DNA of 64,000 nt from Cereibacter ovatus. Lineage in GTDB: Bacteria > Pseudomonadota > Alphaproteobacteria > Rhodobacterales > Rhodobacteraceae. Shown here in pieces: positions 2,302 to 58,142 of this stretch (position 1 is its first letter; each line of letters opens with the position of its first letter). The stretch is from contig NZ_OAOQ01000019.1 in NCBI RefSeq assembly GCF_900207575.1, positions 1 to 64,000 of the forward strand, in the 5' to 3' direction. The position numbers and the translations under genes were made by a program. A model generated the notes under the pieces. It was given only the letters and a program-made list of their open reading frames with translations. It was not told where the DNA came from and ran no database searches.

Positions 2302-3078
2302 ATGGCAGTGAAGTTTGAATATGTAACAAATCCCACTTCTTCGGTTGTCGGCCCAAGAGGTTATGCTTTGCAGCCCTATGAAATTGAGAAGGCTGTTCAT
2401 CGGACCCGCTCTATTGTCGACAAACTGGCGAGTTTTGAGGTCAACGTCTTTGAAATACTGGGCATGAGAAACCTCAGCGCCTTTGTGGGAGAAGTCTTTG
2501 CGGCTTCAATGATCTTGGAGCACCCGGACCTGCTTCGCAAGAATCCACACCAAGATGGGTATCCCGATTTGCTCTTGATGGACGATGATGGCAATGCGGC
2601 ATGGGACGCGCTTTCCAAGAGGCTGCGAGAGAAAGGTCCCTTCAGTCCTTTTCCTACCGGTGGTTTTGAGGTTAAGGCAACTTGCGGCAGCGTTCCCACG
2701 CCGGCCGCGTGTTTAAAACGCGGTTTCGACAAGCCAGACATCGGCGATCAGAGAATTCACGTTGCAACAGGATATGATTGGAAGGCACATCATCGCGAGA
2801 CGAATCATCTCTTTGGGATCTACTGGGATTTCATAGAGCGTTGCCCGACCATCGTTGCCGTGTTCTACAGGGCTGATCTTGTTGAGAATGATTGGGGAAA
2901 GATTGTTCAGCCCAAGGAAGGCGGAGGCCGGACTACTTCCGTTTCGATCATGACGCGGGACGGCGTCAAGAAAATGTACGAAGGGTGGGTGACAGTGATT
3001 AAGTCGTCAACATACGCGTCGTTCTTTGACAAGCATAACAAAGCCAAGCTGATGACAGCTGCAATCAAGCAGCTCTAG
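2302..3078 (+). CDS. Putative type II restriction endonuclease, PD-(D/E)XK fold
   Basis: A 258-residue protein whose partner is the converging cytosine-5 methyltransferase (stop codons overlap tail to tail by 14 bases), which is the strongest evidence for its role. A PD-(D/E)XK catalytic core can be read as GYPDLLL (Asp89) followed after about 33 residues by GFEVKAT (Glu123, Lys125). The C-terminal half has a conserved-looking HRETNHLFGIYWDF segment. I could not assign it to a named endonuclease family and the recognition site is unknown. Base composition (about 50% GC) and codon use are clearly unlike the flanking prophage genes, a sign of horizontal acquisition. No ribosome-binding site is strong; the ATG follows an A-rich stretch. 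Confidence 0.7.
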   Translation: MAVKFEYVTNPTSSVVGPRGYALQPYEIEKAVHRTRSIVDKLASFEVNVFEILGMRNLSAFVGEVFAASMILEHPDLLRKNPHQDGYPDLLLMDDDGNAAWDALSKRLREKGPFSPFPTGGFEVKATCGSVPTPAACLKRGFDKPDIGDQRIHVATGYDWKAHHRETNHLFGIYWDFIERCPTIVAVFYRADLVENDWGKIVQPKEGGGRTTSVSIMTRDGVKKMYEGWVTVIKSSTYASFFDKHNKAKLMTAAIKQL

Positions 3079-7140: not shown

Positions 7141-8041
7141 GGAACTTGCCGATCTCCACATCCTCGAGCACCGCCAGCGCATCGGGCGACTGCACCACCA
7201 GCGAGCAGTAGAGGCTGATCAGGTAAGAGGCGATGGCCGAGCGGTTGATGCCCATGAAGCGCACCGACAGACCCGGGCTTTGCTCACCCGCCAGCCCCGG
7301 CTGGTAAAGCCCCACCACGCCCTGCCGCTTGTCGCCCACCCGCAGAAGCAGGATCTTTGTGCGGCCGTCCACCACCGGAACCTTGTCCGAGGGGATGATC
7401 GGCAGGCCGCGCCAGGTCAGGAACTGCGCGCCGAACAGGCTGACGGTGGCCGGCGGCACGCCGCGCCTTGTGCATTCCCGCCCGAAGGCCGCAATCGCGT
7501 CGGGATGGGTCAGGAAGAAGGCGGGCTCTTTCCAGACCTTCGCGATCAGAAGATCCAGATCGTCCGGCGTCGGCGCGCCGGTCAGCGGAAAAAGCACCTG
7601 CCCCTTGGCCACATTCGCCAGAAGCCCGTAGTCGGGGTTGTTGATCAGCTGGCTTTCCTGCGTCTCCTTGATCGTCTCGATGGCAAGGCGCAACTGTTCC
7701 TTCACCTGATCGAAGGGGCTGGAATAAAGGTCGCTGACGCGGGTGTGGACATCCAGCACCGTCGAGACGCCGTTCAGGAAATACTCGCGCGGGGTTTCGT
7801 CATAGTTGACGAAGGTCTGCGGCAGCTCTGCCTCGTCGCGCTCGGTGCAGGCCACCAGAACGTCCTCGGGGTTCTTCACCCGGTTCAGGCGGTAGATGCC
7901 GGCCTCGACGGGCAGCCATTGCAGCAGATGGACCAGCCAGCGCGGGCTGATGGTGGGCAGGATCGGCGCGGTCTTGGTCGCATTGGCAAGCTGGCGCGCG
8001 GCACTGTCGCTGAGGGCTGCCTGGGGCAGAAGGTCTGCCAT
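7115..8041 (-). CDS. Family 2A encapsulin shell protein (SrpI-like)
   Basis: A 308-residue HK97-fold shell protein of the SrpI type. Recognisable parts are LSDSAARQLANATKTAP near the N-terminus, SPRWLVHLLQWLPVEAGIYRLN (E-loop region), TFVNYDETPREYFL, NPDYGLL, GAPTPDDLDLLIAKVW, and the C-terminal GINRSAIASYLISLYCSLVV. It lacks a cyclic-nucleotide-binding insertion, which separates family 2A from 2B. The subunits should assemble into an icosahedral compartment that encloses the desulfurase encoded immediately downstream. It has a good ribosome-binding site (GGAG, 9 bases before ATG). Upstream lies a serine acetyltransferase remnant, the other gene typical of these operons. Confidence 0.93.
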   Translation of the reverse strand: MADLLPQAALSDSAARQLANATKTAPILPTISPRWLVHLLQWLPVEAGIYRLNRVKNPEDVLVACTERDEAELPQTFVNYDETPREYFLNGVSTVLDVHTRVSDLYSSPFDQVKEQLRLAIETIKETQESQLINNPDYGLLANVAKGQVLFPLTGAPTPDDLDLLIAKVWKEPAFFLTHPDAIAAFGRECTRRGVPPATVSLFGAQFLTWRGLPIIPSDKVPVVDGRTKILLLRVGDKRQGVVGLYQPGLAGEQSPGLSVRFMGINRSAIASYLISLYCSLVVQSPDALAVLEDVEIGKFHDYPDSYK

Positions 8042-8096
8042 TGTCTGTTACTCCGGGAACTGGTTGAAAGTGTTGGTATCGGGCTCGGGAGAGGGA

Positions 8097-8395
8097 TCAG
8101 GCGGTTTGCCTCTCCGGCGGCCGGTCCGTGGAATGCGGGTGGGCCTGCGAGACGATGGCGTGGGGCGGCACGTTCTCGGTCACCCAGACGCTGCCGCCAA
8201 GGATGGCGCCGCGCCCGATGGTGACACGGCCGAGAACCGTGGCGCCGGAATAGATGATGACGTCGTCCTCGACGATCGGATGGCGGGGCATGCCTTTGAT
8301 GGCGCGCCCCTCGGCGTCGGTCGGAAAGCTTTTTGCGCCAAGCGTCACGCCCTGGAACAGCTGCACCCGATGGCCTTTGACGAGGCGATCGCGCT
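8097..8395 (-). pseudogene. Serine O-acetyltransferase (EpsC/CysE type), C-terminal fragment
   Basis: The last ~95 codons match the left-handed beta-helix of EpsC-type serine acetyltransferases: HRVQLFQGVTLGAKSFP, GMPRHPIVEDDVIIYSGATV, LGRVTIGRGAILGGSVW and VPPHAIVSQAHP. The intact enzyme (about 300 residues) makes O-acetylserine from serine and acetyl-CoA and commonly belongs to family 2A encapsulin operons. Homology stops at about 8385-8395, exactly where the soeA fragment begins in the opposite direction, so the first two-thirds, including the catalytic His-Asp pair, is lost. No start codon is available. If the fragment is transcribed at all it must be from a new promoter, which also raises the question of what now drives the encapsulin genes. 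Confidence 0.85.
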
Positions 8396-8396
8396 C

Positions 8397-10091
8397 GATC
8401 AGCCCTGGACCGATTTCCGCGGGGGCCGGCATGCCCGCATGATTGGCCGCCCGGTCGGATTTCACGCCATGCGGGGGATCGCCGCGCATACGAACGGCTT
8501 TCAGACTGCACGGGCGTTTCACCTGCTTCAGATGCTTCTTGGCTGCATCGAGGTGCCGGGCGGCATGCGCTTCCGGCCGCCTTACCCAAGGCCGATGTCC
8601 GCCCATCCCGTGCCGCATTTCCGCGCCCGGCCCGGACAGCCGCTGGACGGACCGCATCTGGGCTTTCCCCGTGGCCCGGCGGATCTTGCACTGACCGAGG
8701 ACGGCCACCCGGCGAGGATCGACGAGGCCTTCAGCTGGGATGCCCCCTTCGCCGCGCATGGACTCATGCAGCGGGTGATCGCCAATGCCCATGCCGGGAG
8801 GCCCTACCGGATCGATACGCTGTTTCTGTACATGGCGAACATGGCGTGGAACTCGTCCATGAACCCGGCCGAGGTCGCGCGGATGCTGACTGACACCGAT
8901 CCCGACGGCAGCTACCGCATTCCCCACATCATCCTGTCGGATGCCTATGCGTCGGAAACCGTGGCCTATGCCGATCTGGTCCTGCCCGACACCACCTATC
9001 TGGAGCGTCATGACGCAATCTCGCTGCTGGACCGTCCGGCCAGTCGCGCCGACCAGGCGGTGGACGCCATCCGCTGGCCGATCACTGCCCCCGACCGGGA
9101 TGTGCGGCCGTTCCAGTCGGTGCTGATCGACCTTGGCCACCGGCTGGGCCTGCCGGGGTTTGCCGAAGCGGATGGCTCGGCCACCTATGCCGATTATGCC
9201 GACTATCTGGTGAGGCACCAGCGCCGGCCCGGCATCGGGCCGCTGGCCGGCTGGCGCGGCGATGGATCGGCGCAGGGACGCGGCGCCCCCAACCCCGACC
9301 AGCTGGCCCGTTACATCGAGGCGGGCGGGGTCTTTTCCGCGGAAGTGCCGCCCGAGGCCGCCTTCTTCAAGCCCTGGAACCGGGCATGGCAGGACTGGGC
9401 GGTGGGCATGGGATTTCAGGACCGGCCGCAGCCTTATCTCTTCACGATCTGGAGCGAGCCTTTGCGGCGCTTCCAGCTTGCCGCGCTGGGGCACGGCCCG
9501 TACCAGCCGCCGGATGAGATGCGGCCCCGGCTGCTGGCCGCGATGGATCCCTTGCCCGAATGGACGCCGCCGGACAGCGATGCGCAGGCGGCCGAGTTCC
9601 CGCTTCACGCGCTGACGCAAAGGCCCGCGGCGATGTATCATTCGTGGGGGTCGATGAACGGCTGGCTGCGGCAGATCCTGGGGCGGAACGTGCTGTTCGT
9701 GCCCACGGTCGAGTGGGAGCGGCTGGGGTTTCAGGACGGCGACTGGGCGCGCCTGACCTCTACGGCCGGCTGGATCGAGAGTCCCGTCGCGCGGATGTCG
9801 GCGCTCAATCCCGGTACGGTCTGGACATGGAACGCCATCGGCAAGCGCAAGGGGGCCTGGGCGCTGGACGATGATGCACCCGAGGCGCGCGTGGGCTTCC
9901 TGCTGAACCATCTGATGCACGATCTTCTGCCCGACAGCCATGAGGGGGGCGGGCGCCGGGCCAATGCCGATCCGGTGACGGGTCAGGCCGCGTGGTTCGA
10001 CCTGAGGGTGCGGCTCGATCGGATCGGCCCACGATTGCAGGTCCGACCCGCCTTCGCGCCGATCCGGTTGACCGTCCGGGGGCGGCGATGA
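8397..10091 (+). pseudogene. soeA: SoeA-type molybdopterin sulfite dehydrogenase subunit, 5'-truncated
   Basis: About 565 codons of the C-terminal half of a DMSO-reductase-family catalytic subunit: PWTDFRGGRHARMIGRPVGF, RGIAAHTNGFQTARAFHLLQ, VPGGMRFRPPYPRP, LVLPDTTYLERHDAI, then MYHSWGSMNGWLRQI and the C-terminal molybdopterin-dinucleotide-binding region. The N-terminal [4Fe-4S] and first cofactor-binding domains (about 400 residues) are missing. SoeABC oxidises sulfite to sulfate at the cytoplasmic face of the membrane. The stop overlaps the soeB ATG (ATGA). The frame is open but there is no credible start, so the complex cannot be complete from this copy. The break coincides with the break in the opposing cysE fragment. 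Assignment to SoeA rather than another related oxidoreductase is by remembered motif and by the soeB-soeC context. Confidence 0.8.
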
Positions 10092-37047: not shown

Positions 37048-38102
37048 TCAGCGGATACCGAATATCCTGGAGAACCGGCGCCACAGGCCATCCGCCGCAG
37101 ATTTCTTTCGCCGCGGCGATTTCAAAGTCTGCCGCAGCAGGGCAAGGCGCTTCTCGTCGATTTCGAAAGCGTCGGAAATCAGCCGAACCTCTCGGTCGAG
37201 CGTCGGCAGGCGTCCGATCCGGCGATAGTCGATCCCGTCGAAGACAATCCCGTGATGGTCCCTTAGCCACAGAAGGTCGGTCGATCCCTCATCCATATAT
37301 CGGCCCGAAGCTTTGGCGGGGCCTGCGGCGTAACCTGACGATCCGCCTCGCGGAGCCGCTCGCGGAAACGGCGCTTTTCGGACGTGGGGATGTCGTCCTT
37401 GTCCGGCTGATGCCGGATCTGGAAATCCTGCATCAGCAGGGCTGCCTCGGCCGACATCGTCTCGTTGACCTGAACCGCGGGGGCGAGTGGGATATCCTCT
37501 CGTCCGAGCGCGTGAAACAGGAAATCTTCGGCAATGTCGCCGGATCGGAGTCCATTCCGCTCGTATTTCCGAACCGCCACGCAGCCGGGGAACCGGCTTT
37601 CCCACAGCTCGATGTCCTTGCGCCACGAAATCGGACGCGGCTGGGTCAACAGACCAGAGTATTTCACCGTCTGTTGCAGCATCGAGGTCAGCCACGTCGA
37701 CGGCTGTCGAAGATAAAGCGTGACGTGGATGTTGCCAAAAGTTTCGCGCAGCCTTTCGCAGAGCATGTCGCCCCCAGGAAGACCGATGCGGCTGGAAACA
37801 TACTCGGTTGACAGGATGACGCCTGCGGGCCGGCACGCCTCGATCTCGGCCAACATCCGTGTCCACATGCGATCGAACACCGCGGGGCCATTGTCGCGGC
37901 CGTAGCGGCTGACCATCAGCCGCGGCCCCCGGTTCGCGAAGTCGAGAGACAGCGCCAGAAAATGATGGGCGTTGGCCGTTTCGGTCTGGGGATACAGCCA
38001 CCCCGCACCCAGCAGCGCCGCGCGCGAGGCGGCAAGGCGGCTTTGAAGCGCGGTCGTGCCGGTCTTCGGCAAGCCGGCATGCAGGGCTAGATCTGGTTTC
38101 AC
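37048..38102 (-). pseudogene. Sulfotransferase-like protein, frameshifted at an AT repeat
   Basis: The first frame from ATG 38102 gives 279 codons with the PAPS-binding loop HAGLPKTGTTALQSRLA near the start and a VTLYLRQPSTWLTSMLQQ stretch, as in bacterial glycan sulfotransferases. It stops at 37263. A second frame carries a plausible continuation (DEGSTDLLWLRDHHGIVFDGI, ending SRIFGIR at 37048). The two join at ATATAT (37295-37300): removing one AT restores ...LRADMDEGSTDLLW.... It overlaps the preceding two-domain gene by 4 bases, so it belongs to a glycan-modification operon. The damage may be real, a phase-variable slip, or a sequencing error. Confidence 0.7.
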
Positions 38103-40012
38103 GACCCTCTCTCGGTATGTTTGCTACGGAATGATTGCGACGGGCTGCCGACATCGGCGCTGTGGTCCATCGCCTGTCGATACCAACCGGCACGACGACG
38201 CAGAACCTCGTCGTCCAGTTTGCGCAGCGTCAGCAGGATCGAGCGGCTGCGTGTCAGGGCGCGATGCCTGCTTGCTTCGGACCCGCTCGCCTCGAGAAAA
38301 GCCTTGCCCGACGAGAGCCGCGCCACCCAGCCGGCGCTTCCCACAAACCGCGAGTCAGCGCAGGGCTGCGAAAGGGGCAGATCCCACGGGTCGGACGTCC
38401 AATGCTGCCACGGGCCGGGCACCCCCAGACGCATCAGAAGATCGACCTTGGGCCGGCGACCATAGGGATGCGCCTCATCGAAGGTTTCGACCGTGTCAGC
38501 GCGAAACAGGATCTGGGGCTCTTCGTTCGCGAGGATCGAGCCCGTATCGCCGTGCAGGATCTGATTGTCGGTCATCCAAGCCATTGGCACGGCGAAATAC
38601 TTGAGATGTCCCTGCGCATCGACCGCCTGACGGATGTCATCCCAACTGCATCGGGGCAGGAAGCAGTTTCCGTCCCAGGGCAGAACCCATTTTGCTTCCG
38701 ACCGGCCGGTTGCCAGGGCGATGTTGCGGGCGCCGTTGTTGTGCATCACATAATTGTTGCGCAGCCGATAGGTCTGGACCGTGGCGCGAAGCTGGGTCTC
38801 GGGGTCCAGACGCCGGAAATCCGCGCTTTGGAAGAAGTCTGCGCCCCCGGGGAACAGGCTGAAGTCGAGCGGGATCTTTGCATATTCGTCGAAGTCGAAG
38901 GGAATGCGAATGTAATCCTGCCGGTGATCCTCAAGCAACCGCAGAAGCTTCTGTTCCTGTTCGGGATCGTAGATCCGGTTCAGCACCCATTTCTTGCGGC
39001 AATCCGTCAGTTCGCCTTCGTGCTCAAGGATGAACCCGAGGTTCGTGATCGACTGCCCCGCCGCATGGCGCGGTTCCAGGTCGTTGCCGATGATCCGATA
39101 AAGAACAAACTCGTCCTTCATTCGGTTCTGCCCGATGTCAGGGACCGAAGGGTTCGCCAACGGGGCGGCATCGTGTTGCCATGACCTGTCCGGAACCACG
39201 CTTGGCGTGGCCTTCGCGGGAACCGGGGCGCTGTTCGCAACCTTGCTCCTGCATTTCCGTCGGGACCACCTGAGAAGACGAACCCCCAGCGCCGCCGGCA
39301 GCAGCACCGGTGACAGCGCCAGAAGATAGGGGGCCAAAAGCAGCAGCCGCTGTCGCTTGAGGCGCTTTATTCTGGCCTGCATGGGCGCGTTCACGTCAAA
39401 AGGCTCTGACGCGGGCCCCGCCGGCGGGGCCGCATAGCTGACCTGGAAAAAGGCGGGGATCACGTCTTGAAACGCGTTGGAATCAACGCTGAGTGGGGTG
39501 ACATGAAACTCGGCCATCCGGCCCACCATCCGCACCGGTTTGAAGAACCGTTCAACGAGGCGATAATTGGGACGGTCCTTGTAGTCGTCGAACAGGATAC
39601 GGGTGGGCTTCTTGCAGTTGATGCAAACAGACAGGAAGCAGGCCGCGCGGAACCGCCCGTCAATCAGGACGACATCCGGCGAGGGAAAGCCGGGAACCGA
39701 CCAGGGCGCCAGCGGATATCGATGGAAGTCCGTCCAGTGCTCGGAATTGACAGGTTTGCCCCATTTGCCGACCGGCCCGATATCGACATGATGGATGACG
39801 GGCATCGAGAGCGGTGACTCTGCCGCAAGCCGGGCGGCAATGTCATGCGCCCAGGCACGATCGCTTTCCACACTCAGGATGGTCTTGTCTGGCATCTGCG
39901 CGGCGATCCATGTGGACCCGCCCGATCCAAACTCCAGAATGACACTCGCCTCCGCATAGGCTTCGCGCACAAGCGCGGCCTCAGCCGGTGGCATCAGGGG
40001 AGCAGTGGACAA
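38099..40012 (-). CDS. Two-domain protein: methyltransferase-like N-terminus plus uncharacterised C-terminal domain
   Basis: 637 residues. Residues 1-195 look like a Rossmann SAM-dependent enzyme (ASVILEFGSGGSTWIAAQMPDKTILSVESD, then DVVLIDGRFRAACFL). A basic hydrophobic stretch (LLLLAPYLLALSPVLLPAALGVRLL, about 225-250) follows. From about residue 297 a second domain begins with FVLYRIIGNDLEPRHAAGQS, NLGFILEHE, and KKWVLNRIYDPEQE, a pattern I associate with uncharacterised glycan-related proteins; it also has KWVLPWDGNCFL, glycosyltransferase-like. Start is TTG 40012 (AAAGGAAAG upstream) or ATG 39994. It lies between a family 2 glycosyltransferase and a sulfotransferase, so a role in a cell-surface glycan is likely. 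Confidence 0.65.
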   Translation of the reverse strand: MSTAPLMPPAEAALVREAYAEASVILEFGSGGSTWIAAQMPDKTILSVESDRAWAHDIAARLAAESPLSMPVIHHVDIGPVGKWGKPVNSEHWTDFHRYPLAPWSVPGFPSPDVVLIDGRFRAACFLSVCINCKKPTRILFDDYKDRPNYRLVERFFKPVRMVGRMAEFHVTPLSVDSNAFQDVIPAFFQVSYAAPPAGPASEPFDVNAPMQARIKRLKRQRLLLLAPYLLALSPVLLPAALGVRLLRWSRRKCRSKVANSAPVPAKATPSVVPDRSWQHDAAPLANPSVPDIGQNRMKDEFVLYRIIGNDLEPRHAAGQSITNLGFILEHEGELTDCRKKWVLNRIYDPEQEQKLLRLLEDHRQDYIRIPFDFDEYAKIPLDFSLFPGGADFFQSADFRRLDPETQLRATVQTYRLRNNYVMHNNGARNIALATGRSEAKWVLPWDGNCFLPRCSWDDIRQAVDAQGHLKYFAVPMAWMTDNQILHGDTGSILANEEPQILFRADTVETFDEAHPYGRRPKVDLLMRLGVPGPWQHWTSDPWDLPLSQPCADSRFVGSAGWVARLSSGKAFLEASGSEASRHRALTRSRSILLTLRKLDDEVLRRRAGWYRQAMDHSADVGSPSQSFRSKHTERGS

Positions 40013-40063
40013 CGTTCAACTTTCCTTTGTGGCTTCGGCCGCACGGGGCGCCGTGGCTGGATC

Positions 40064-41062
40064 TCAATTCCCCGTTACTTGAGAATAAAGAGCCGACCGC
40101 CGGCCCGCCAGTGCCGACAGTCGCCCCACGATCCAGCCCGCGCTGCGCGCGACATCGACATAGGTCCGCCCCCGGGTCAGCGGCAGCGCAAGGATCAGGG
40201 CCATGACCAGCACTGCCCGCAGTGGCACGCTGACCAGCACGCCAAAGCGCGAAGCCGGCCTTTTCGCGATCCGGCGCAGGAAATGGGTGTTCGACTGGTC
40301 GCGACCGCGGCGGAACTGGTAAAGGAACGACAGGCGCTCGGGCGGGACAGTCTCATGGACGAAGGCATCCGTCACCCAGCCCACCCTTAGTCCGGCCGCG
40401 CGGGCATCGGCGCAGAATTTTGCATCCGAGCCGCCGGTAAAGCGCATGGTCTCGTCGAACCACAGGCCATGTTCGGTGAACAGCCCCGTCTCGGCCAGCC
40501 AGTTGTTGGTGACAACCGTCACCCCCGGGCAGCCCGGCAGATCGGCGCGGCGTGCCGCGCGGGCCTCTTTGCGCAGGTAGCGCGCCGAAAGGCTTCGGTG
40601 CATCAGCCGTTCCGACCAGCGCGCCGCCGGATCGGTCAGCGGGCCGATGCGCAAGGGCGCCCCGATCAGCACCGCATCCGATCTCCGATAGCCCGCCACC
40701 AGACGGTCCAGCCAGTCGGGGGCCACTTCCTCGTCGTCGTCCACGAAGGCCAGAAGGTCGGCGCCCCCCGCGATCGCCTCGCGTGCGGCGCGGTTGCGCG
40801 CGAAGGGAATGCCGAGTTCGGGTTCCAGAACATAGGCCAGGGCCGCGCCGTTGGGCATCCGGCAGGTCTCGACCATCTGGCGGGAATTCTCGGCGCTGTC
40901 GTTCTCGACCACAAGGCAGCGCAGGGTGCAGTCCGGCGGCAGGACCATCCGCCCCCATGACAGCAAAAGCGCCTGCAACATCGTCGGCCGTTGCCGGGTC
41001 AGGGTCGCCACGACGATGGTCAGGTGTCGGTTTCTGGCTGGATTACTGGTCATATACGTCAT
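40064..41062 (-). CDS. Family 2 glycosyltransferase
   Basis: 332 residues: GT-A fold with TIVVATLTRQRPTMLQALLLSW at the N-terminus, NSRQMVETCRMP, AFVDDDEEVAPDWLDRL (DXD-like metal site), GCPGVTVVTNNWLAETGLF and GGSDAKFCADARAAGLRVGW. A C-terminal hydrophobic segment (PLRAVLVMALILALPLTRG) could tether it to the membrane. It transfers a sugar from a nucleotide donor to a growing glycan. First gene of the minus-strand glycan operon; divergent from the ABC exporter. ATG 41062 is chosen because of GGACGAG upstream; 41053 is the alternative. Confidence 0.88.
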   Translation of the reverse strand: MTYMTSNPARNRHLTIVVATLTRQRPTMLQALLLSWGRMVLPPDCTLRCLVVENDSAENSRQMVETCRMPNGAALAYVLEPELGIPFARNRAAREAIAGGADLLAFVDDDEEVAPDWLDRLVAGYRRSDAVLIGAPLRIGPLTDPAARWSERLMHRSLSARYLRKEARAARRADLPGCPGVTVVTNNWLAETGLFTEHGLWFDETMRFTGGSDAKFCADARAAGLRVGWVTDAFVHETVPPERLSFLYQFRRGRDQSNTHFLRRIAKRPASRFGVLVSVPLRAVLVMALILALPLTRGRTYVDVARSAGWIVGRLSALAGRRSALYSQVTGN

Positions 41063-41286
41063 CTCGTCCGATTGCCGGGCAGGTGCCCGGTCCCCCCACC
41101 GGGGGAGAGCCGTCAAAAGCCCATGTCCTCATAACTTGCCCGTGAGGGTTGTGAAACCCGTCGCGTTGACGAAAGCGGCAACAGCAGCATCTGGCCGCCC
41201 GCAGGCTGGCAGGCGGGTAGAGCAGTCGACGCCTTGCGGACAAGCTGCTAGGAGGTCCGCCGACGACACAAGCCGGCCAGAGGGAC

Positions 41287-43077
41287 ATGCGGATGACCAG
41301 ACGGGGACGACAGGCCCTTCAGAACGGGCCCCATGGTCGGGCACCGCGAAGCCTGCTGTGGCGGCTGCTGCGCGAAAGCGTTCCGCAGCATCGGGGCAAG
41401 TATCTGGCGGCCATCGTTGCCATGGTGCTGGTGGCGGTCTCGACGGCGATGACGGCCTGGGTCATGGGCGCGATCGTGGATTCGATGAACGACAGCGAGA
41501 ACCGCGGCCGCATCTTCCTTGTCGCGGCGGCGGTGGCGGTGGTCTTTTTCATGAAGGGCGCCGCCTCGTTCGCGCAGATGGTGCTGATGACCAAGGCCGG
41601 CAGCAGCATCGTGGCGGAAAAGCAGATCCAGCTTTACAACCGGCTGCTGGAACAGGGTCTGAACTATTTCAGCACCACCGACTCATCGAATGTGCTGGTG
41701 CGGGTGACGCAAAGCGCGCAGCGGGCGCGCAAGGTGATCGACACCATCGTGACCGGCTTCGTGCGCGATGCCCTGACGCTGCTGGGGCTGGTGGGGGTGA
41801 TGGTCTATCAGCAGCCTGTGCTGTCGCTGGTCTGTCTGGTGGTCGGGCCGGTCGCGCTGTTCTTCATCCAGAAGATCCTGGCCCGGGTCCGCGCGCTGAC
41901 CGCACAGGAACTGTCGGGCCAGGCCGAGATCATCAAGGTGGTGCAGGAAACCGCCACCGGGGTGCGGGTCATCAAGGCCTTCGCGCTGGAACGGCGGATG
42001 GCCCTGCGTATGGAAAACGCCGTGCGCCGGGTGGAAAAGCGCATCAACAAGATGGCCCGACTGGAGGCCGCGACCACGCCGCTGATGGACACGCTGACCG
42101 GGCTTGCGATCGCGGGGGTGGTGATGCTGAGCGCGGTCAGCGTTTTCGGCCAGTCGGTGGGCACGCCGGGGCAGTTGATGTCCTTCGTCACCGCGTTCCT
42201 CATGGCCTATGAACCGGCCAAGCGGCTGTCAAAGATGCGGGTTTCGATCGAACGTGGCATGAAGGGGGTGCAGATGATGTATGACCTTCTCGACCAGCCG
42301 CGCATGATGATCGATCCGCCCGATGCGGTGGACCTGCCCGACGGGCCGGGGGCGCTGAAACTGGAGGGCGTGCGCTTCGGCTATCCCCGCGGCAAGGCGG
42401 TGATCGACGGGATCACGCTTGATTTTCCGACCGGGCGGACGACGGCGCTGGTCGGCCCCTCGGGCGGGGGCAAGTCCACGCTGCTGAACCTGATCCTGCG
42501 GCTTTACGACCCCGACGAGGGCCGCATCACCCTGGATGGCTGCGACCTGCGGCAGGCCACCGCCGCCTCGCTGCGGCGCAAGATCGCCTATGTCGGGCAG
42601 GATACGTTCCTGTTCTCGGCCACGGTGATGGAGAACCTGCGTCTCGTGCGGCCCAATGCCACCGACGACGAGGTGCACAAGGCCGCCCGCATCGCCCATG
42701 CCGACGAATTCATCCAGACCCTGCCGCAAGGGTATGACACGCCGATCGGCGAGAACGGCGCCTTCCTGTCGGGCGGCCAGCGCCAGCGTCTGGCCATCGC
42801 GCGGGCGGTGCTGCGGCAGGCGCCGATCCTGCTGCTGGACGAAGCCACCAGCGCGCTCGACAGTCATTCCGAGGCAATGGTGCGCGACGCGCTGGACCGC
42901 ATTACCGTGGGCGTCACCACCATCGTGGTGGCGCACCGGCTGTCGACCGTGCTGAAGGCAGACCTGATCTGCTATCTGGAAGGTGGCCGCATCGTCGAGA
43001 CCGGCAGCCTCGATCAGCTTCTGACCCGGAACGGCAGATTCCGCGCGCTTTACGAACAGCAGTTCGCACCCGCCTGA
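41287..43077 (+). CDS. ABC exporter, fused permease-ATPase (MsbA-like)
   Basis: 596 residues: six-helix transmembrane domain (about 30-330), then ATPase with Walker A GPSGGGKST, Q-loop YVGQDTFLFSATV, signature LSGGQRQR, Walker B ILLLDEATSALDSHSE and H-loop VVAHRLSTV. Such half-transporters export lipids, glycolipids or peptides as homodimers. Divergently placed from the glycosyltransferase operon with a 224-base gap, so export of a glycolipid or glycan intermediate is plausible. The RiPP-like cluster 5 kb away has no exporter of its own, so a peptide substrate cannot be excluded. Confidence 0.9.
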   Translation: MRMTRRGRQALQNGPHGRAPRSLLWRLLRESVPQHRGKYLAAIVAMVLVAVSTAMTAWVMGAIVDSMNDSENRGRIFLVAAAVAVVFFMKGAASFAQMVLMTKAGSSIVAEKQIQLYNRLLEQGLNYFSTTDSSNVLVRVTQSAQRARKVIDTIVTGFVRDALTLLGLVGVMVYQQPVLSLVCLVVGPVALFFIQKILARVRALTAQELSGQAEIIKVVQETATGVRVIKAFALERRMALRMENAVRRVEKRINKMARLEAATTPLMDTLTGLAIAGVVMLSAVSVFGQSVGTPGQLMSFVTAFLMAYEPAKRLSKMRVSIERGMKGVQMMYDLLDQPRMMIDPPDAVDLPDGPGALKLEGVRFGYPRGKAVIDGITLDFPTGRTTALVGPSGGGKSTLLNLILRLYDPDEGRITLDGCDLRQATAASLRRKIAYVGQDTFLFSATVMENLRLVRPNATDDEVHKAARIAHADEFIQTLPQGYDTPIGENGAFLSGGQRQRLAIARAVLRQAPILLLDEATSALDSHSEAMVRDALDRITVGVTTIVVAHRLSTVLKADLICYLEGGRIVETGSLDQLLTRNGRFRALYEQQFAPA

Positions 43078-47979: not shown

Positions 47980-49041
47980 TCATGGGGCTGGCGCCGATCG
48001 ACGATACGCCCGTGATCCGGTTCGGGGTAGAAAAGCGGTCAACGGATTCACCTTCAACCGCCAGCTGCGCATGACATTGGCGCCGCTCGCTATCTTTTCC
48101 TTGACGAAGCCGGTGCCGATCATCAGGTCGAAAAGATGAACGCCATCAGCCCTGAGGCATTCGGAAAGAGCCAGAAGCTCGTGCCATCCCGGAGAGCCGG
48201 CGGCGAAACAGGGATCGTAGGCGATCTTCGAGTAGAATGCCGTATCCCCGCGCCGGAATGTCAGGCTGGCGGCTGCGGTCTGATCGCCCACACGCAGGCG
48301 ATGGCCAAGCGCACGACCCTGCGCGGCCAGCCGCATCGCAAGATCACGAAAGTAGTGCTCGGTCTGCGGGCGTTGGATCCAGTTGGCGCCATCGTGGTCG
48401 GCCAGCTTGCTGCGCTTGAACCGGAAAATCCAGGCCACCAGTTCCGCCAGGTCTTCGGGGGTTCTGTGTTGCTCGAAGGTAACCGGCCCCATCGCCTCAA
48501 GTTTGCGGCGGTAGTTGCGCAAATCCTTGCGCCGCCGCGGGGACAAGCGGTCCAGGACCGGCCCCATCGAAAGATCTATATGGGGTGTCGGCACCGGACA
48601 GCCTGGCTCTGCGCCGAGAAAGGCACAGAAACGCGCCAGTGCGCTGTCGTCGGGAACGTAGTCCACCTTCAGCTTGCGAAGGCCGGGCTGCGCCAGAAGC
48701 CCTTTTGCCAGAAGCGGAAAGACGTCTTTCTCGCGGTCGGGCCGGCACAAGAGATCAGAGTAAAGCGGAGTGTCGCTGTCGGCCCAATGGAGAACGCCAA
48801 GGCCAATCCAACCCTGACCCCAGACCATGGGGGCGGCGGCGATCATCGTTTCGCCCTCGAACACGGTCAGCACAAACGGGCTGGCGCGGCACTTGGCCAT
48901 CTGAACCGTCAGGTTTGCCAGTGTGGCCGCCGCGTCATGGAAAATCGCCGTCGCACCGAGCCTGTCCGCAAGTGCGTTCCACTGGTCCGCTTGGCCAGAG
49001 ACCTCGTCCAGCGTGGTCGACAGGCGGAGGATGAGCGTCAT
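47980..49041 (-). CDS. GNAT-fold acyl/aminoacyltransferase (CelD/FemAB-like) of the RiPP-like cluster
   Basis: 353 residues of the acetyltransferase-6 type: AIFHDAAATLANLTV, APMVWGQGWIGLGVLHWA, LSPRRRKDLRNYRRKLEAMGPVTFEQHRTPEDL, HYFRDLAMRLAAQGRALGHRLRVGDQTAAASLTFRRGDTAFYSKIAYDP, and C-terminal GTGFVKEKIASGANVMRSWRLK. The family has two GNAT domains and moves acyl or aminoacyl groups, for example in exopolysaccharide or peptidoglycan peptides. Here it overlaps the ATP-grasp gene (ATGA) as the last gene of the cluster, so it may transfer a group onto the peptide. Substrate unknown. Confidence 0.7.
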   Translation of the reverse strand: MTLILRLSTTLDEVSGQADQWNALADRLGATAIFHDAAATLANLTVQMAKCRASPFVLTVFEGETMIAAAPMVWGQGWIGLGVLHWADSDTPLYSDLLCRPDREKDVFPLLAKGLLAQPGLRKLKVDYVPDDSALARFCAFLGAEPGCPVPTPHIDLSMGPVLDRLSPRRRKDLRNYRRKLEAMGPVTFEQHRTPEDLAELVAWIFRFKRSKLADHDGANWIQRPQTEHYFRDLAMRLAAQGRALGHRLRVGDQTAAASLTFRRGDTAFYSKIAYDPCFAAGSPGWHELLALSECLRADGVHLFDLMIGTGFVKEKIASGANVMRSWRLKVNPLTAFLPRTGSRAYRRSAPAP

Positions 49042-50399
49042 GGCATGAACCTTCTCAGTCGCCTGGCAATGCGTTGGACGGGGGACAGTCTTTCATCTGC
49101 CAGCGCCAGCCCCGCCCGCCGAAGTGTCTTGCGGTGGCGCTGGATCTCGTTCAGATCCCGCCCCATCACCATCAGACGCATATTGGTGGGCCCGTTGGGC
49201 ATGCTGGCCACCTGCGGATCGAAAAGGCCCAGAACGACAAGCCAGCCTTCGTGAATCAGTGGCCAGAGCCGGGCGAGAAGCACGCGGGAAGGCGTGTCGG
49301 ATGTCGCAAAGATCAGGTCGGCCATATCAAATCCGCGTGCTGCCCCAAGGGCACCGAAGGCCATCAGGAATGGCGTGCTGGCATTCGGACGGAAATTGAG
49401 GTCGATCGCGACTGGCGGTCCATCCTCGCGTTCAAGAATATCAAAGCCCGCGATACCGCGGTAGCCAAGCTGCGCCGCTGCGGCAGCGATCGTCAGGGCC
49501 AGTGCGCATGTCTCGGACGACGGCTGCGCCGCCGGGTCAAACCTGTTCCCGAGGTAGATGCCAGAGGCTCTTGTGCGCTGCATGCTTGAACCAAGGAACG
49601 CGACCTCGTTCTTGCCGGCACAGGTGCATTGAACACAGAAATTGGCGGTGTAGGGAACGCGCGCCTCGATCACGATACGATCCGCGCCGGCCAGACCCGT
49701 GCGGGCACGGGTGACATGCCGCTTCCGGCGAAGAACCCAGACCCCGGCTCCGCCAGAGGATGACGGCAACCGGGCGTCCTTCACGACAAGGCCCGGCCGC
49801 AGTGCCGCCAGCGCCTGCGCAACATCTGCCCGCCCCTCGATGACCCGGCGCTTCGTGCGGTTTTCCGGCGGAACCAAGCGGTCGATCGCGCTGCGCAGGT
49901 TCAGATCGGCGATCAGGGACGGCGGCACAACTATCGGTTCGTCGGGAAAGAGACCGAGGGGCACGGGACAGGTGAACCATGCGCGTCCCCCCTGCGCCAT
50001 CCGTTCGCAGACGCGGGCCACATACCCGTCCCGGCTGTCGAAGCGGTCGACAGCCGTCGGCGGCGAAAGACCTGAAGCTGCGATTGCATCCAGCAGCGGT
50101 GCGGTCGAGGCCGCCTCGTGCGCCAGAATGGGCAGACTTCCACAAACCGCCAGAAGTGCGCCGCTCAACGCTTCGGCCTGCTGTCCGACGAAAGGCGATC
50201 CCGGCTGCATCTCTTCCAAAAGCCGCGGCGCGATGAAGGTGTCTTCGGGCACGAGTTCGGCAAGCGTGATCATGCGTTGCACGGTATCGCGAGTCGAATG
50301 GGGCTGTCCATCGACCAAGGAGGCACCGCTCGTCACCCCGGGGCGATGGGCAAATGCGCTGTGACCCGCCGCGAAGGGGATTGTCCACGTCGTCTGCAT
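49038..50399 (-). CDS. ATP-grasp ligase of the RiPP-like cluster
   Basis: About 453 residues with an ATP-grasp core: GLVVKDARLPSSSGGAGVWVLRRKRHV (glycine-rich lid), DRIVIEARVPYTANFCVQCTC, and metal and ATP ligands in GYRGIAGFDILEREDGPPVAIDLNFRPNAST. An N-terminal domain (RPGVTSGASLVDGQPH, LAELVPEDTFIAPRLLEEM) precedes it. ATP-grasp enzymes join carboxylates to amines or other nucleophiles through acyl phosphates, and in RiPP pathways they form omega-ester, amide or peptide bonds. The start is uncertain: ATG 50399 or 50444, or GTG near 50468, none with a good ribosome-binding site. It overlaps the GNAT gene by 4 bases and follows the PP-loop gene. Confidence 0.75.
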   Translation of the reverse strand: MQTTWTIPFAAGHSAFAHRPGVTSGASLVDGQPHSTRDTVQRMITLAELVPEDTFIAPRLLEEMQPGSPFVGQQAEALSGALLAVCGSLPILAHEAASTAPLLDAIAASGLSPPTAVDRFDSRDGYVARVCERMAQGGRAWFTCPVPLGLFPDEPIVVPPSLIADLNLRSAIDRLVPPENRTKRRVIEGRADVAQALAALRPGLVVKDARLPSSSGGAGVWVLRRKRHVTRARTGLAGADRIVIEARVPYTANFCVQCTCAGKNEVAFLGSSMQRTRASGIYLGNRFDPAAQPSSETCALALTIAAAAAQLGYRGIAGFDILEREDGPPVAIDLNFRPNASTPFLMAFGALGAARGFDMADLIFATSDTPSRVLLARLWPLIHEGWLVVLGLFDPQVASMPNGPTNMRLMVMGRDLNEIQRHRKTLRRAGLALADERLSPVQRIARRLRRFMP

Positions 50400-50509
50400 T
50401 TGCGCGCAGGATGGTGGCGTGCACGATCCTGCCGTCGGGGCCATCGGCACCGTGGGAAGCCGCACGATCACACGGCGGGTTCGGGGTTCAGCACCAGCCG
50501 CAAGCGGCC

Positions 50510-51685
50510 CTACCGGCGCAAGTTTTCCGAAGGCGCGGCGGCAGCCCTCAGGTAACGGCGCCGCCGCTTCCATCGCTTGAACTTTCGGTGCAGCGTTTCA
50601 AGTGCCAGCGCCCGCGTCAGCCGGTCGCGACGGTCAAACGCCGCGATGGCGCGGTCGATGGCGTGCGGCAGATCCGTCGGCCTGCGGTTGGCCACGGCCG
50701 CCGCGCGCATATCCAGCAGATCGGTCCGTGTCCCGCGCCCATCGGCAATCACCCGTCCGTCGACAAAGTCCGCCCTGTCATAGGTCGGGGCGCGGTCGAA
50801 CCCGTCAAGAACCGCCAGCGCATTCAGCATGAACACGCAATCCGGGCAGGTTCCGCAATTGGCATCGTCGTAGTCGCAGACCCGCAGCCCCGCCATCAGA
50901 TGCGGCTTGTCAAGGATACGGGCGATCTTGGAAAACCGCGGGGCAAGCGCGTGATGCACGCAGGCCACCGTCTCTGAACCCCAGAGCGGGTCGAGGTCGG
51001 GATGCGTTCCCCATGGGCGGAGATATGTCGCCTCATCCGCCGAAGATGCGATGAGGGCATGGCCGATTTCATCGCCAAGCATATGCGCTACGGCGGCAAG
51101 CACCGCACCATGATATTCCACCCAGCCGATCATACTGTCAAAGACGGCGCGGATATCGGTCGTGATCAGGACGTGCCGCATGCCTTCCGCCTGTGCCACC
51201 GCGCGAGTGGTGGCGGCAAGGCGCGTGACGCGATCGGTTTCGGTCGCGGGAACATCGGCGCCCACAAGGGTTATCAGCGTGTCGATCCGGGCGCGATCAA
51301 GGTCCAGGGAATATGAAGAGTCGACCCCACCGGAAAAGAACAGCGCGGTCCCCCGGCCTTTCGGCGGTGGTGACGGGTTCCCGGTCGCTGACCAGATGAG
51401 GGGCGACAGCCCCGGATACCAGCGCCTCAGAAGGGTGACGATCTCGCCCACGCGATTTGCAAGCGCCGGCCCGGGCGGGGGGCTGATGTGAAGCGGGGCA
51501 TCGACCTCCATCGCCGGGATAAGGCCCAGGCACAAAAGCGCATCACCGGACCGCCGAAGCGGGGGGCCGTCGCTTTCGAACCGGACACGGCAAGGGGGCG
51601 CATTCCCCATGGCCACAAGAATGTCCGCGTGGCGAGGCGACGGCTGATCCGGCGCGAAAGCGAGTGAGAGGGCCGGGCGCCTCAT
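50510..51685 (-). CDS. PP-loop ATPase (asparagine-synthase/adenylase-like) of the RiPP-like cluster
   Basis: 391 residues with the PP-loop ALFFSGGVDSSYSL (SGGVDSS at about 118-124), then TLVGADVP, HVLITTDIRAVF, and a Cys cluster CDYDDANCGTCPDCVFMLNAL around 280-300, which looks like a metal site. No glutaminase domain is present, so it is not a full asparagine synthetase. PP-loop enzymes adenylate carboxylates or carbonyl oxygens; in lasso peptides a related domain activates a side chain for ring closure. Its ATG overlaps the preceding stop (ATGA). Function in this cluster is inferred from position only. Confidence 0.75.
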   Translation of the reverse strand: MRRPALSLAFAPDQPSPRHADILVAMGNAPPCRVRFESDGPPLRRSGDALLCLGLIPAMEVDAPLHISPPPGPALANRVGEIVTLLRRWYPGLSPLIWSATGNPSPPPKGRGTALFFSGGVDSSYSLDLDRARIDTLITLVGADVPATETDRVTRLAATTRAVAQAEGMRHVLITTDIRAVFDSMIGWVEYHGAVLAAVAHMLGDEIGHALIASSADEATYLRPWGTHPDLDPLWGSETVACVHHALAPRFSKIARILDKPHLMAGLRVCDYDDANCGTCPDCVFMLNALAVLDGFDRAPTYDRADFVDGRVIADGRGTRTDLLDMRAAAVANRRPTDLPHAIDRAIAAFDRRDRLTRALALETLHRKFKRWKRRRRYLRAAAAPSENLRR

Positions 51686-51990
51686 GCTTGCGCCGCATGG
51701 GCGATGGTGCTGGCGTGCCGGGCTTGTCCGTGGCGCCGGATCGCTGCGGCGATCCGGCTGCCGCACAGGGCGGCCATTCCCGCGGTCACCATGGCGTGGC
51801 GCGGATCAGGCCCCTTGCCGACGGCACGATGCGCCGGACGCAGCTTGACGGCCTGATCCGCAAACCGTGCGAACGGGCCGGGCACGATAAGGCGGAGCGT
51901 GACGACGGCAAGGAATGCACCCAAGATGACCCATGGATCAGGCCGCGGCGATTTCGGTGCGCCGATGTCACGAAAAAAGGAATCGTGATA
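51682..51990 (-). pseudogene. Short conserved-looking fragment, weakly like the N-terminal half of a lasso B2 protein
   Basis: The frame ending at 51682 contains one hydrophobic helix (WVILGAFLAVVTLRLIVPGP) and MAALCGSRIAAAIRRHGQAR, which resembles the Cys-containing helix of Transglut_core3 (B2 leader peptidase) proteins. The His/Asp half of that family is missing: the protein ends about 30 residues after the Cys. No ATG fits; possible starts are TTG or GTG inside the helix. Either a degraded leader peptidase or a small unrelated protein. It is coupled to the PP-loop gene by ATGA. Confidence 0.3.
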
Positions 51991-52383
51991 GCCAAAGCAC
52001 CTTGGATCACCTGTCCAGACCGCGGCGATCCATGCCTGTGGACCGGGCTTTGGGATGGGAACCGAAACCGACACCGAAACCGACACTTTACATGTGCCCT
52101 TACCTTCAAATGGGGACACGTTCATCTTAGCAGCTGTGGTGACGAGAAAAAGGCGCATGCGATCATGGATCGCATGCTGCCGCCCGAGTGGTGGACAGAT
52201 GTCCCGGTGCTTCGCGCGGCTGCCTGCGTTTGCCGGTCTGCTTCCACCAGATCGAAGCAGACCACGGCGGGCGGGTGTCAGCCATGGGCCGCGTGAGGTC
52301 ATGGATGGTTTTGGAAGATGGTCCAGCCTTTGCTGCCCGCCCTGGCCTGCGACCCGGTTTCCCGGGCGCGCAGATGGACGCCT
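51991..52383. other. Spacer inside the RiPP-like cluster
   Basis: 393 bases between the radical SAM gene and the next fragment. The minus-strand frame is open here but its composition looks non-coding. It contains a short A/T-richer part and a tandem direct repeat of 12 bases, CCGAAACCGACA twice (about 52062-52085). The inverted repeat TCACGA-N9-TCGTGA lies at its edge (51968-51988). An internal promoter for the PP-loop, ATP-grasp and GNAT genes is possible. Confidence 0.35.
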
Positions 52384-53499
52384 TCATACGTCCGGGGCCG
52401 CCACAGGCGATGTCGGGACAGCGCCCCCTTCCGCCTGCCGCGCGGCCAGATCGCGTTTCGCCTGCATCAGATCGCAGAGATAACGGGCCGGCGCCGTCAG
52501 CGAGCCGGTCTCGGTCACCGACCACGCCGGGCAGCGGGGGCAGTGAGCGGCGGCTTCGCAGGACGCACATTCCGGATCGACCGGGGGTGCGGCATCCACA
52601 TGGCTCTGAAGCTGCCGCCACGCCATTGAAAAGCCGGTCTCGCGCGGCTCAAGGGCCGGCCGGTCAAGATTCAGGCAGGGCAGCATCCTGCCGAAAGAGT
52701 TGATCGCAAACGAGGATTTTCCGACCTGACAGGCAAAGCACGCGCTATCCCCGGACAGGTTGCCGGAACCCGTCGCCGACATGGCCGCAAGCGTGCCGGG
52801 GCGTTCGATGGCGGCAAGTGCCGCACAATCCTGCGGCGAAAGCCGGCACTCTTCGGCGCCGCAGGCCGCCCCGTCGCGCCGCTGCATGAGCATCCAGTTC
52901 GCCGCCAGCGACAGTCCCCAGTCGCGCGCCATCTGCCGCATCGGTTCGAGATCGTCCCGGTTCTGCCGCGTGATCGTCGTCTTGAGTTCCAGCGGAACCC
53001 CATGGCGCAGCAGCGCCTCGATGCCCGCGCGGCAGTGGTCGAACGCCTCGGGCACGCCCGTCACCGCGCCGTAGGTTGCCGCACTTGCCCCGTAAAGGGT
53101 GATCTGGGTCATCTGCGGCGGTGCCTCGGCCAGGCGTGCCGCGATCCGGTCGGTGACCCGCGTGCCGTTGGTGAAAAGTGTAAGGATCAGCCCCATCCGC
53201 GTCAAAGGTGCGTAGATGTCGAAGAAGTCGCGCCGCAGGAAGACCTCGCCTCCGGTCAGCAAGAGAAAGATCATGCCAGCATCCGCGGCCTCTTGCGCCA
53301 GGGACACCCAGTCGGCCGCGGGAAGTTCACGGGCGCGGTGGGCCGCATCGTTGGCAGGCTGGCGCACATAGCACATCCCGCAGGCAAGGTTGCAGCGTTC
53401 GGTCAGTTCGAACAGGCCGCTGACCGGCTGACGCAGCCCCGCTGCCCGCCGTTGCAGGGCCTTGACCATCGTGACATGGCCTTCGGGGTGCGGGCTCAT
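52384..53499 (-). CDS. Radical SAM/SPASM peptide maturase of the RiPP-like cluster
   Basis: 371 residues. Radical SAM core with CX3CX2C at Cys36, Cys40 and Cys43 (ERCNLACGMCY), GGE motif in LLTGGEVFLRRDFFDIY, and a C-terminal SPASM region with further Cys clusters: CFACQVGKSSFAINSFGRMLPC, then CASCEAAAHCPRC and a last Cys in ARYLC. Architecture equals PqqE and sactipeptide or ranthipeptide maturases, which form thioether or C-C crosslinks in precursor peptides. It overlaps the PqqD-like gene by 4 bases (ATGA), and the likely substrate is the Cys-containing peptide encoded just upstream of both. Confidence 0.88.
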   Translation of the reverse strand: MSPHPEGHVTMVKALQRRAAGLRQPVSGLFELTERCNLACGMCYVRQPANDAAHRARELPAADWVSLAQEAADAGMIFLLLTGGEVFLRRDFFDIYAPLTRMGLILTLFTNGTRVTDRIAARLAEAPPQMTQITLYGASAATYGAVTGVPEAFDHCRAGIEALLRHGVPLELKTTITRQNRDDLEPMRQMARDWGLSLAANWMLMQRRDGAACGAEECRLSPQDCAALAAIERPGTLAAMSATGSGNLSGDSACFACQVGKSSFAINSFGRMLPCLNLDRPALEPRETGFSMAWRQLQSHVDAAPPVDPECASCEAAAHCPRCPAWSVTETGSLTAPARYLCDLMQAKRDLAARQAEGGAVPTSPVAAPDV

Positions 53500-53894
53500 G
53501 GCCGAAGCAACCCGATCTGCGAGATTTCCTCGACAAAGGCAGCGGCATCCGCACGCGCGCGGTCGGCGTTCACATTGAACCGGGCCGTCAGCGCCGCCGC
53601 CAGATCCTCGACGCAGCATTCCTCGGCCAGAAGATCCCACATGAACCGGGCCGGTTCGTTCAGAACCACAAGGCCCCTGACCTCGCGGGTGCGGGCCCCG
53701 AGAGGAACAAGAAGGTGATCGCTGCCGATGCTGCGCACCCGAAAACCGTCCTGCTGTCTGATGGCCGTTCCTCCGATCGACGATGCGCCCGGACGGCAAC
53801 CGACATTCGCCCCGCTGACGCGGCGTGCAGGGCGAATGTCGCGGCGCGGGCAATCAAGATGCCGGGCGATGTGATGCCGGCGCGGTGCGCCCAA
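53496..53894 (-). CDS. PqqD-like peptide-recognition protein (RRE)
   Basis: The last ~88 residues are a PqqD domain: FRVRSIGSDHLLVPLGARTREVRGLVVLNEPARFMWDLL, then CVEDLAAALTARFNV and ADAAAFVEEISQIGLL. Such domains bind the leader of the precursor and present it to the radical SAM enzyme. The start is odd. The frame is open to TTG 53894, 2 bases after the precursor stop, but that would add ~45 unlikely residues, and the hairpin at 53802-53840 lies within them. A perfect GGAGGAA site stands 5 bases before ATC at 53762, exactly where an 88-residue PqqD should start, but ATC is a very rare initiator. Confidence 0.8.
   Translation of the reverse strand: MGAPRRHHIARHLDCPRRDIRPARRVSGANVGCRPGASSIGGTAIRQQDGFRVRSIGSDHLLVPLGARTREVRGLVVLNEPARFMWDLLAEECCVEDLAAALTARFNVNADRARADAAAFVEEISQIGLLRP
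53802..53840 (-). terminator. Hairpin between the precursor peptide and the PqqD-like gene
   Basis: GACATTCGCCCCGC / GCAGGGCGAATGTC: 14-bp stem with one G-U pair and an 11-base loop, about 60 bases after the precursor stop. No T-run. Such elements often make the precursor mRNA more abundant than the enzyme mRNA, by partial termination or by protecting the 3' end. Confidence 0.6.
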
Positions 53895-53896
53895 CC

Positions 53897-54103
53897 CTAT
53901 TTGCAGTCGCAGGGGCTGTTCGGGCTGGGATAATTGCCGGGGGGTTGTGGCTGGCCGCAGTCGCAGGGCTCGTTGGGACTTGGATAATTGCCGTTCGAGG
54001 CGGACTCGCTTCCAGCCAGGATCTCCGAGACCCGGACAGTCGGAGTGGCGTAGGGCAGTCTGCTTTCAAGCGGTGTTCTGGTGGGCGCACATGCAACGTT
54101 CAT
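53897..54103 (-). CDS. RiPP precursor peptide with duplicated GNYPSPN-x-PCDC core
   Basis: 68 residues, preceded by AGGAGA 8 bases before the ATG. Residues 1-37 look like a leader (MNVACAPTRTPLES, TVRVSEILAGSESAS). The C-terminal 31 residues hold two near-identical units, GNYPSPNEPCDC and GNYPSPNSPCDC, separated by GQPQPP and ending with Lys. Four of the five Cys are in CDC pairs; Tyr, Asn and Pro are repeated in register. Small size, leader-plus-repeated-core layout and position just ahead of PqqD and radical SAM genes mark it as the likely substrate. I do not recognise the family. Confidence 0.75.
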   Translation of the reverse strand: MNVACAPTRTPLESRLPYATPTVRVSEILAGSESASNGNYPSPNEPCDCGQPQPPGNYPSPNSPCDCK

Positions 54104-57573: not shown

Positions 57574-57585
57574 ACGATCAGCGAC

Positions 57586-57622
57586 GCCGTGACCTGTGGG
57601 GCCCGCCCCCACAGGTCACGGC
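57586..57622. terminator. Terminator after gdhA
   Basis: GCCGTGACCTGTGGGG / CCCCACAGGTCACGGC: perfect 16-bp stem with a 5-base loop, 12 bases past the stop. Confidence 0.85.
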
Positions 57623-58142
57623 GCAGACGAGCTGCGCCGATCCGGACACCCGACAAGACGCAGGACGCGATGCGCCGCGCGACATGGCCACGGTCTTGCC
57701 GGCCATGTCGCGCGCTCCATCCCGATTGCGGCGCACGGTTTCGCGCGCAAACCGAACGCGCTGGAAAAGACGGGCCGGGTTCGGAAAAAGGACGGATACC
57801 GGATGCTTGACCTGCGGGACGGCGATATGGTCGCCCGGCACGGATTGGCGAAAGCGGACGTTCGCGCAAGCGCGTGGGTCTGCGTTGTCTTCAACAAAAC
57901 CAGCGGGTTCTGTCTCGGCTGCCACCCGGGCAGTATCCGCCAGGCCGGGCCGGTCGTCACCAGTCAGGTGGTGCCATCAAGGCCCGGGCGTGACAGGCCG
58001 CATTCCCCGCCCGATCGGCTTGGTTCCCGCACCGAAAGCGACGGGTGGCCGGATGCCGTTCAGATCACGGCCGCCCCGGGGCGGTGGCCAGAATGGTCTG
58101 GGCGGTGCAGGAACAGGTCGAGACGCTTGGTCGGCTTAAGGT
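57623..58142. other. Apparent non-coding debris
   Basis: 520 bases. Several frames are open but none has a ribosome-binding site, recognisable motif or plausible composition. Confidence 0.35.

Follow-up and report, generated by a model that had tools for sequence, protein, structure and literature searches.

We find that a seven-gene locus of Cereibacter ovatus, which could be taken for one unrecognised peptide pathway, quite likely consists of two adjacent, functionally separate gene sets. The locus lies at positions 47980-54103 of a stretch of 64,000 nucleotides (contig NZ_OAOQ01000019.1, positions 1 to 64,000; hereafter the window). One part, module A (about 52155-54103, including a terminator-like site), comprises a precursor peptide, a PqqD-type protein and a radical SAM/SPASM enzyme, and would make a ribosomally synthesized and post-translationally modified peptide (RiPP). 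The other, module B (47980-51685), is a trio of a PP-loop ATPase, an ATP-grasp ligase and a tandem GNAT, and would form a carboxylate-activating, amide-forming set that serves a surface polymer. The independent occurrence of the trio, above all, together with the terminator-like site and the faint coding signal of the intervening DNA, indicates that the combination is probably a juxtaposition. Literature searches for this gene combination returned nothing relevant.

All seven open reading frames (ORFs) are on the minus strand, in the order precursor, PqqD-type protein, radical SAM/SPASM enzyme, short ORF, PP-loop ATPase, ATP-grasp ligase and GNAT. ORF calls, translations and Pfam searches bear out this order and the gene coordinates, both of which had been given in a preliminary description made from the DNA letters. 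The same description had the genes mostly overlapping by 4 bases; such overlaps occur at three junctions only (PqqD/radical SAM, short ORF/PP-loop and ATP-grasp/GNAT). A gap of ~160 nt separates the precursor from the PqqD gene. The radical SAM stop (52384) is ~700 nt away from the PP-loop start (51685), and ~400 nt of this interval have no clear coding signal as judged from codon-position GC. The features are listed below in the direction of transcription.

53897..54103, minus strand: probable precursor, 68 aa, with a leader, two cores in tandem and Lys at the C-terminus (ribosome-binding site, ATG, repeat)
53957..53992, minus strand: core 1, GNYPSPNEPCDC, residues 38-49 (translation, repeat comparison)
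53903..53938, minus strand: core 2, GNYPSPNSPCDC, residues 56-67 (translation, repeat comparison)
53801..53841, minus strand: hairpin with a 12-bp perfect stem and no T tail, in the gap before the PqqD gene; might act in attenuation or processing
53496..53738, minus strand: PqqD-type protein, ~80 aa if GTG is taken as the start (the longer ORF matches Pfam PqqD at 1.9e-12)
52384..53499, minus strand: radical SAM/SPASM enzyme, 371 aa (Pfam Radical_SAM 4.8e-16; CX3CX2C and SPASM cysteines)
52155..52177, minus strand: intrinsic-terminator-like site between the modules (10-bp perfect stem and T-rich tail)
51682..51924, minus strand: short ORF, no family assigned (codon-position GC signal; its stop overlaps the PP-loop start in ATGA; its own start is uncertain)
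50510..51685, minus strand: PP-loop ATPase, 391 aa, predicted QueC-superfamily fold with QatC-like architecture (structure comparison; SGGVDS; cysteine site)
49038..50273, minus strand: LdmS-like ATP-grasp ligase, 411 aa (start placed by comparison with relatives; LdmS model 3.1e-35; family profile)
47980..49041, minus strand: GNAT, probable tandem FemX-like fold, 353 aa (PF13480, Acetyltransf_6, 8.9e-26)

Module B in other genomes and the boundary between the modules

The PP-loop protein was the one protein of the locus scanned against a collection of 84,980 species, which gave relatives in two Mesorhizobium genomes and an Ahrensia metagenome-assembled genome; a further relative is encoded on a Gemmobacter aquarius plasmid. 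The identities are 43-54%. In all four, an ATP-grasp gene (30-39%) and a GNAT gene (25-33%) lie close by, with gene order and strand as in the window. In Mesorhizobium, an opposite-strand Mur-ligase gene stands between the PP-loop and ATP-grasp genes; the two Mesorhizobium loci are near-identical, and the trio is thus seen in three independent settings, not four. None of the four loci (stretches of 17-31 kb) contains a match to the window's radical SAM enzyme, PqqD-type protein or precursor. Two Mesorhizobium ORFs with a CX3CX2C motif are antisense to, or overlap, other genes and are unlike radical SAM proteins.

The neighbors of the trio are mostly of polysaccharide type: a PF04230 pyruvyl-transferase-like gene, a GT25 gene and a Mur ligase. 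In Gemmobacter, the neighbors make up a full exopolysaccharide locus. A second copy of the PP-loop gene in the window's own strain (contig C39; ~39% identical) lies beside a formyltransferase, a GT25 gene and a pyruvyl-transferase-like gene, without ATP-grasp and GNAT genes. Distant relatives of the PP-loop protein adjoin pyruvyl transferases in Azospirillum and Gloeothece; some other distant relatives do not.

That the trio's enzymes share a peptide substrate with the SPASM enzyme is not well supported: the trio recurs without the peptide genes, its neighbors are mostly of polysaccharide type and a terminator-like site lies between the two parts. Homologous loci that lack a conserved peptide ORF, which the preliminary description had named as telling against its reading of a RiPP-like cluster, are what we find for the trio half, in four genomes; for module A, no homologous locus was found.

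The terminator-like site lies ~207 bp past the maturase stop and is the strongest such site in the window. It is also the only perfect stem of at least 8 bp with a T-rich tail on either strand, where 0.15 would be expected from Markov shuffles. A promoter scan was uninformative.

Three further loci are of note. In the second copy's locus (C39:104000-122000, L018; 7524-11159), the formyltransferase, PP-loop, GT25 and pyruvyl-transferase-like genes form a compact operon; the same order is kept in another genome (G089, L019), followed by a Mur-ligase-like gene. Elsewhere (L084 of G635, 6006-9144), two tandem distant PP-loop relatives lie among acyl-CoA-dehydrogenase-like and P450-like genes, with no obvious polysaccharide neighborhood. 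In the window itself, ~5-10 kb from the trio, positions 37263-43077 hold a Glycosyltransferase 2 gene (40064-41116), an ABC exporter (41287-43077) and two further genes without a Pfam match, which could be a surface-polymer locus of the same strain.

The PP-loop protein and the question of one pathway or two

We regard the PP-loop protein as a divergent member of the QueC superfamily with a QatC-like architecture, as judged from its predicted fold (pLDDT 85.6). The model aligns most closely with QatC of the qatABCD anti-phage system (9y01_B; Z 14.5, rmsd 4.1, 294 residues aligned), N-terminal extension included, and also with QueC (3bl5_E; Z 11.3, rmsd 3.6, 177 aligned). Foldseek alone gave nothing below 0.001 for this model, with QueC ranked first, and a search of the sequence against the PDB returned antibody noise only. 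The protein shares with QatC and QueC the three-part architecture, the fold, an SGGxDS motif (SGGVDS at 118) and a CxxCxxC-type cysteine site (CX6CX2CX2C at 270, with a first spacer shorter than the canonical x8). It differs from both in lacking their signature motifs, as defined in PMC13329287: YxQxHxxE, VPxRN and YPDC of QueC are all absent, as are all four of the QatC motifs D(x)4R(x)7WxR, DxW/YxxxF, RxRxxxF/Y and P(x)4TK; an HP pair is present. No Pfam family was assigned to the window protein, and PF06508 (QueC) matched weakly in three of seven family members (best 0.026). It differs also in the polysaccharide-type neighborhoods of its relatives, and PADLOC matched none of five locus proteins to any defence model, Qat included.

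Judged by its modelled shape, the PP-loop protein is the more surprising protein of the locus: it resembles QatC, yet none of the five locus proteins scanned points to a recognised defence system. The QueC superfamily has so far been discussed mainly for queuosine and anti-phage defence, and the main text of a 2026 survey of the family does not mention polysaccharide, ATP-grasp or GNAT (PMC13329287). Our comparisons suggest that QatC-shaped members also recur near genes for surface polysaccharides, in the company of an amino-acid ligase and a GNAT that resembles FemX.

A likeness to lasso peptide clusters, in which the preliminary description noted that PP-loop and RRE proteins occur together, is not borne out. 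Lasso (B1/B2/C) clusters likewise have a PqqD-type protein near a PP-loop ATPase, but theirs is asparagine-synthetase-like, whereas the fold here is QueC/QatC-like; the single contact with an asparagine synthase model was at 0.03, in another member of the PP-loop family. They also have a B2 transglutaminase, and a PF13471 search of the strain's own genome found nothing at the locus. The short ORF had been considered as the N-terminus of a B2 protein; it has no match in Pfam or NCBIfam and no plausible relative on plasmids, and the idea was dropped because neither family nor relative backs it.

Several observations weigh against a division into two modules. The modules are co-directional and only ~700 nt apart, and both have lower GC content at third codon positions (GC3) and lower codon adaptation than the flanking genes. 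One congener (G298) lacks the island beside rsgA; the rsgA side alone is common to both genomes, and the exact empty site is not definable. This composition and the absence of the island in the congener point to a recent acquisition of both parts, perhaps at the same time. The terminator at 52177-52155 is a sequence prediction. Finally, we found no second genome with module A, and no homologous locus in which conservation of the precursor could be assessed, in the samples searched. These comprised, for the radical SAM protein, the genus (5 genomes), the class (385), the family (296), 157 relatives, plasmids and viral contigs; these samples overlap one another and represent a genus by roughly one genome each.

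The alternative is a single pathway, the kind of reading given in the preliminary description. The peptide would be crosslinked by the SPASM enzyme, and the trio's enzymes would cap or extend it with activated amino acids, acyl groups or a deazaguanine-like group. Proximity, shared direction and shared composition favor it. QueC and Cap9 use ATP to activate a carboxylate that is then joined to an amine (PMC13279940). Also in its favor, QueC-family enzymes are reported to modify the N-terminal Gly of partner proteins, as shown for Cap9 and proposed for QatC (PMC13279940); each core of the precursor starts with Gly. Set against this are the four genomes with the trio and no peptide genes, the terminator-like site that separates the parts, and the absence from the PP-loop protein of both the tested QatC motifs and YPDC, the Cap9-type motif for recognition of 7-carboxy-7-deazaguanine. 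We consider a single pathway unlikely. Less likely still is one specific form of it, in which the QatC-like enzyme would activate the carboxylate of 7-carboxy-7-deazaguanine, or of an amino acid or dipeptide supplied by the ATP-grasp enzyme, and join it to the N-terminal Gly of the freed, crosslinked GNYPSPN cores. If true, such capping by a nucleobase or amino acid would define a new class of RiPP and put QueC-type peptide conjugation to a new use. We favor two separate modules, and the locus is a caution that co-directional neighboring genes need not form one pathway.

Module A, a candidate radical-SAM RiPP cassette

The gene anatomy gives good support to the earlier assignment of a precursor, a PqqD-type protein and a SPASM enzyme to a radical-SAM RiPP cassette. 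The 68-aa ORF is probably the RiPP precursor, with a leader and two cores. It has a good ribosome-binding site before its ATG, and its 12-residue cores share the consensus GNYPSPN[E/S]PCDC, in which Gly is first and Tyr, Asn and two Cys are invariant. The two cores have eight codons in common, three synonymous differences and one amino-acid change, a pattern that suggests that the repeat is held at the protein level. Internal 12-mer repeats matching at 10 or more of 12 positions are rare: among 5,349 short ORFs of the analysed sequence, they occur only at this locus (in four overlapping records) and in three unrelated ORFs.

The precursor matched no Pfam or NCBIfam family and had no convincing relative in the 296 family genomes, where the weak matches inspected, including one in G100, look like chance. 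Of the tblastn matches on Rhizobiales plasmids, the four that were followed up are ORFs in the wrong frame, most of which run antisense to genes for ABC transporters. The hairpin that follows the precursor is statistically weak (whole-stretch z -1.0), such hairpins not being rare in the window. Hairpins between the precursor and the next gene are common in RiPP operons.

The PqqD-type protein is likely a leader-binding RiPP recognition element; its ORF has no ATG start, and a GTG start gives 80 aa. SPASM domains usually carry the cysteine pattern CX2CX5CX3C, in place of which the maturase has CX2CX5CX2C. It falls below the cut-off of every NCBIfam equivalog shown, the best being AhbD (112.9 versus 500), and the named maturase models (PqqE, mycofactocin, StsB, Nif11, ScmE/F, AhbD and NirJ) all score far under their cut-offs.

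No close relative of the radical SAM protein was found in any of the samples listed above, and viral contigs gave no match. Given the limited breadth of those samples, the enzyme is an orphan in the sense of being unmatched in them, not of being absent from nature. Its relatives at 34-37% in the family lie in PQQ (pyrroloquinoline quinone) or NirJ-type operons; the matches that were opened lie in PqqE-type or NirJ-type operons or at different radical SAM loci, and the genome of a class-level match (G392) lacks the cassette. The PqqD-type protein had no relative on plasmids.

Module A is probably a true radical-SAM RiPP cassette of three genes, whose sequence is new and whose predicted architecture is ordinary. 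Like cassettes of the PqqA-PqqD-PqqE type, it has a small precursor first, then a discrete PqqD-type protein and then the SPASM enzyme; unlike them, it has an enzyme far under the PqqE cut-off and two tandem CDC-containing cores for which no relative was found. A SPASM enzyme and Cys-containing cores are shared with sactipeptides and ranthipeptides. However, the enzyme scores 70 bits against the sactipeptide StsB model (cut-off 625), and the precursor lacks the CX3D/E motif of PapB-type ranthipeptides (PMC9413430).

The PqqD-type protein would bind the precursor leader, and the SPASM enzyme would then place radical crosslinks in each of the two cores. We tentatively assign these as thioethers formed by the invariant Cys pair of each core, the likeliest chemistry; C-C or C-O bonds at the invariant Tyr or Asn are a less likely alternative. 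Module A contains no protease or exporter gene, and a protease encoded outside the cassette would free the cores. As a compact two-core, three-gene system, the cassette should be easy to reconstitute.

The 68-aa ORF might instead encode a small repeat protein, for example one that binds metal through Cys-Asp-Cys, with the maturase substrate encoded elsewhere. The failure of searches to find a homologous precursor would fit this, as would the 160-nt gap and hairpin before the PqqD gene. We think it improbable, given that the ORF stands directly upstream of the PqqD-SPASM pair, with a good ribosome-binding site, a leader and two conserved cores, and that its repeat is conserved at the codon level.

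Partner enzymes of module B and other features of the window

The ATP-grasp ligase falls below the Pfam cut-off. Its closest NCBIfam model is the L-aspartate-L-methionine ligase LdmS (3.1e-35), where its 121.7 bits stand well short of the equivalog cut-off of 475. A profile of its family matches LdmS (7r8p) at 1.1e-60, with the homology extending over nearly the whole length and including the ATP-grasp domain. The GNAT is a probable tandem GNAT resembling the FemX-type, aminoacyl-tRNA-dependent ligases, though in a low-confidence model (pLDDT 66) in which FemX ranks first with a Z tied with those of many CoA-dependent GNATs; a profile search for structures found nothing. From these families, module B would most likely activate an amino-acid-like group and transfer it through an amide bond onto a surface polymer or its precursor; its part in the window's strain is probably to make or attach such a substituent.

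It is very doubtful that the trio's PP-loop protein is instead a MurL-like ATP-dependent epimerase, not amide-forming, acting on a peptide or glycopeptide from the ATP-grasp ligase: MurL does require ATP and releases AMP, which suggests substrate adenylation (PMC5808125), and one of seven family members weakly matches the MurL model (0.17), but this single match is far under threshold, and the LarE and QueC models match more members with better E-values.

Two further features of the window lie outside the locus. At 2302-4402, a C5 cytosine methylase gene (PF00145, 3.9e-35) adjoins a 258-aa ORF without a Pfam family; their GC3 of 0.54-0.57 is far under that of the surroundings, and the two are thus likely a horizontally acquired restriction-modification pair. 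At 57585-57714, two long perfect inverted repeats, with stems of 17 bp and 14 bp, lie within 130 bp.

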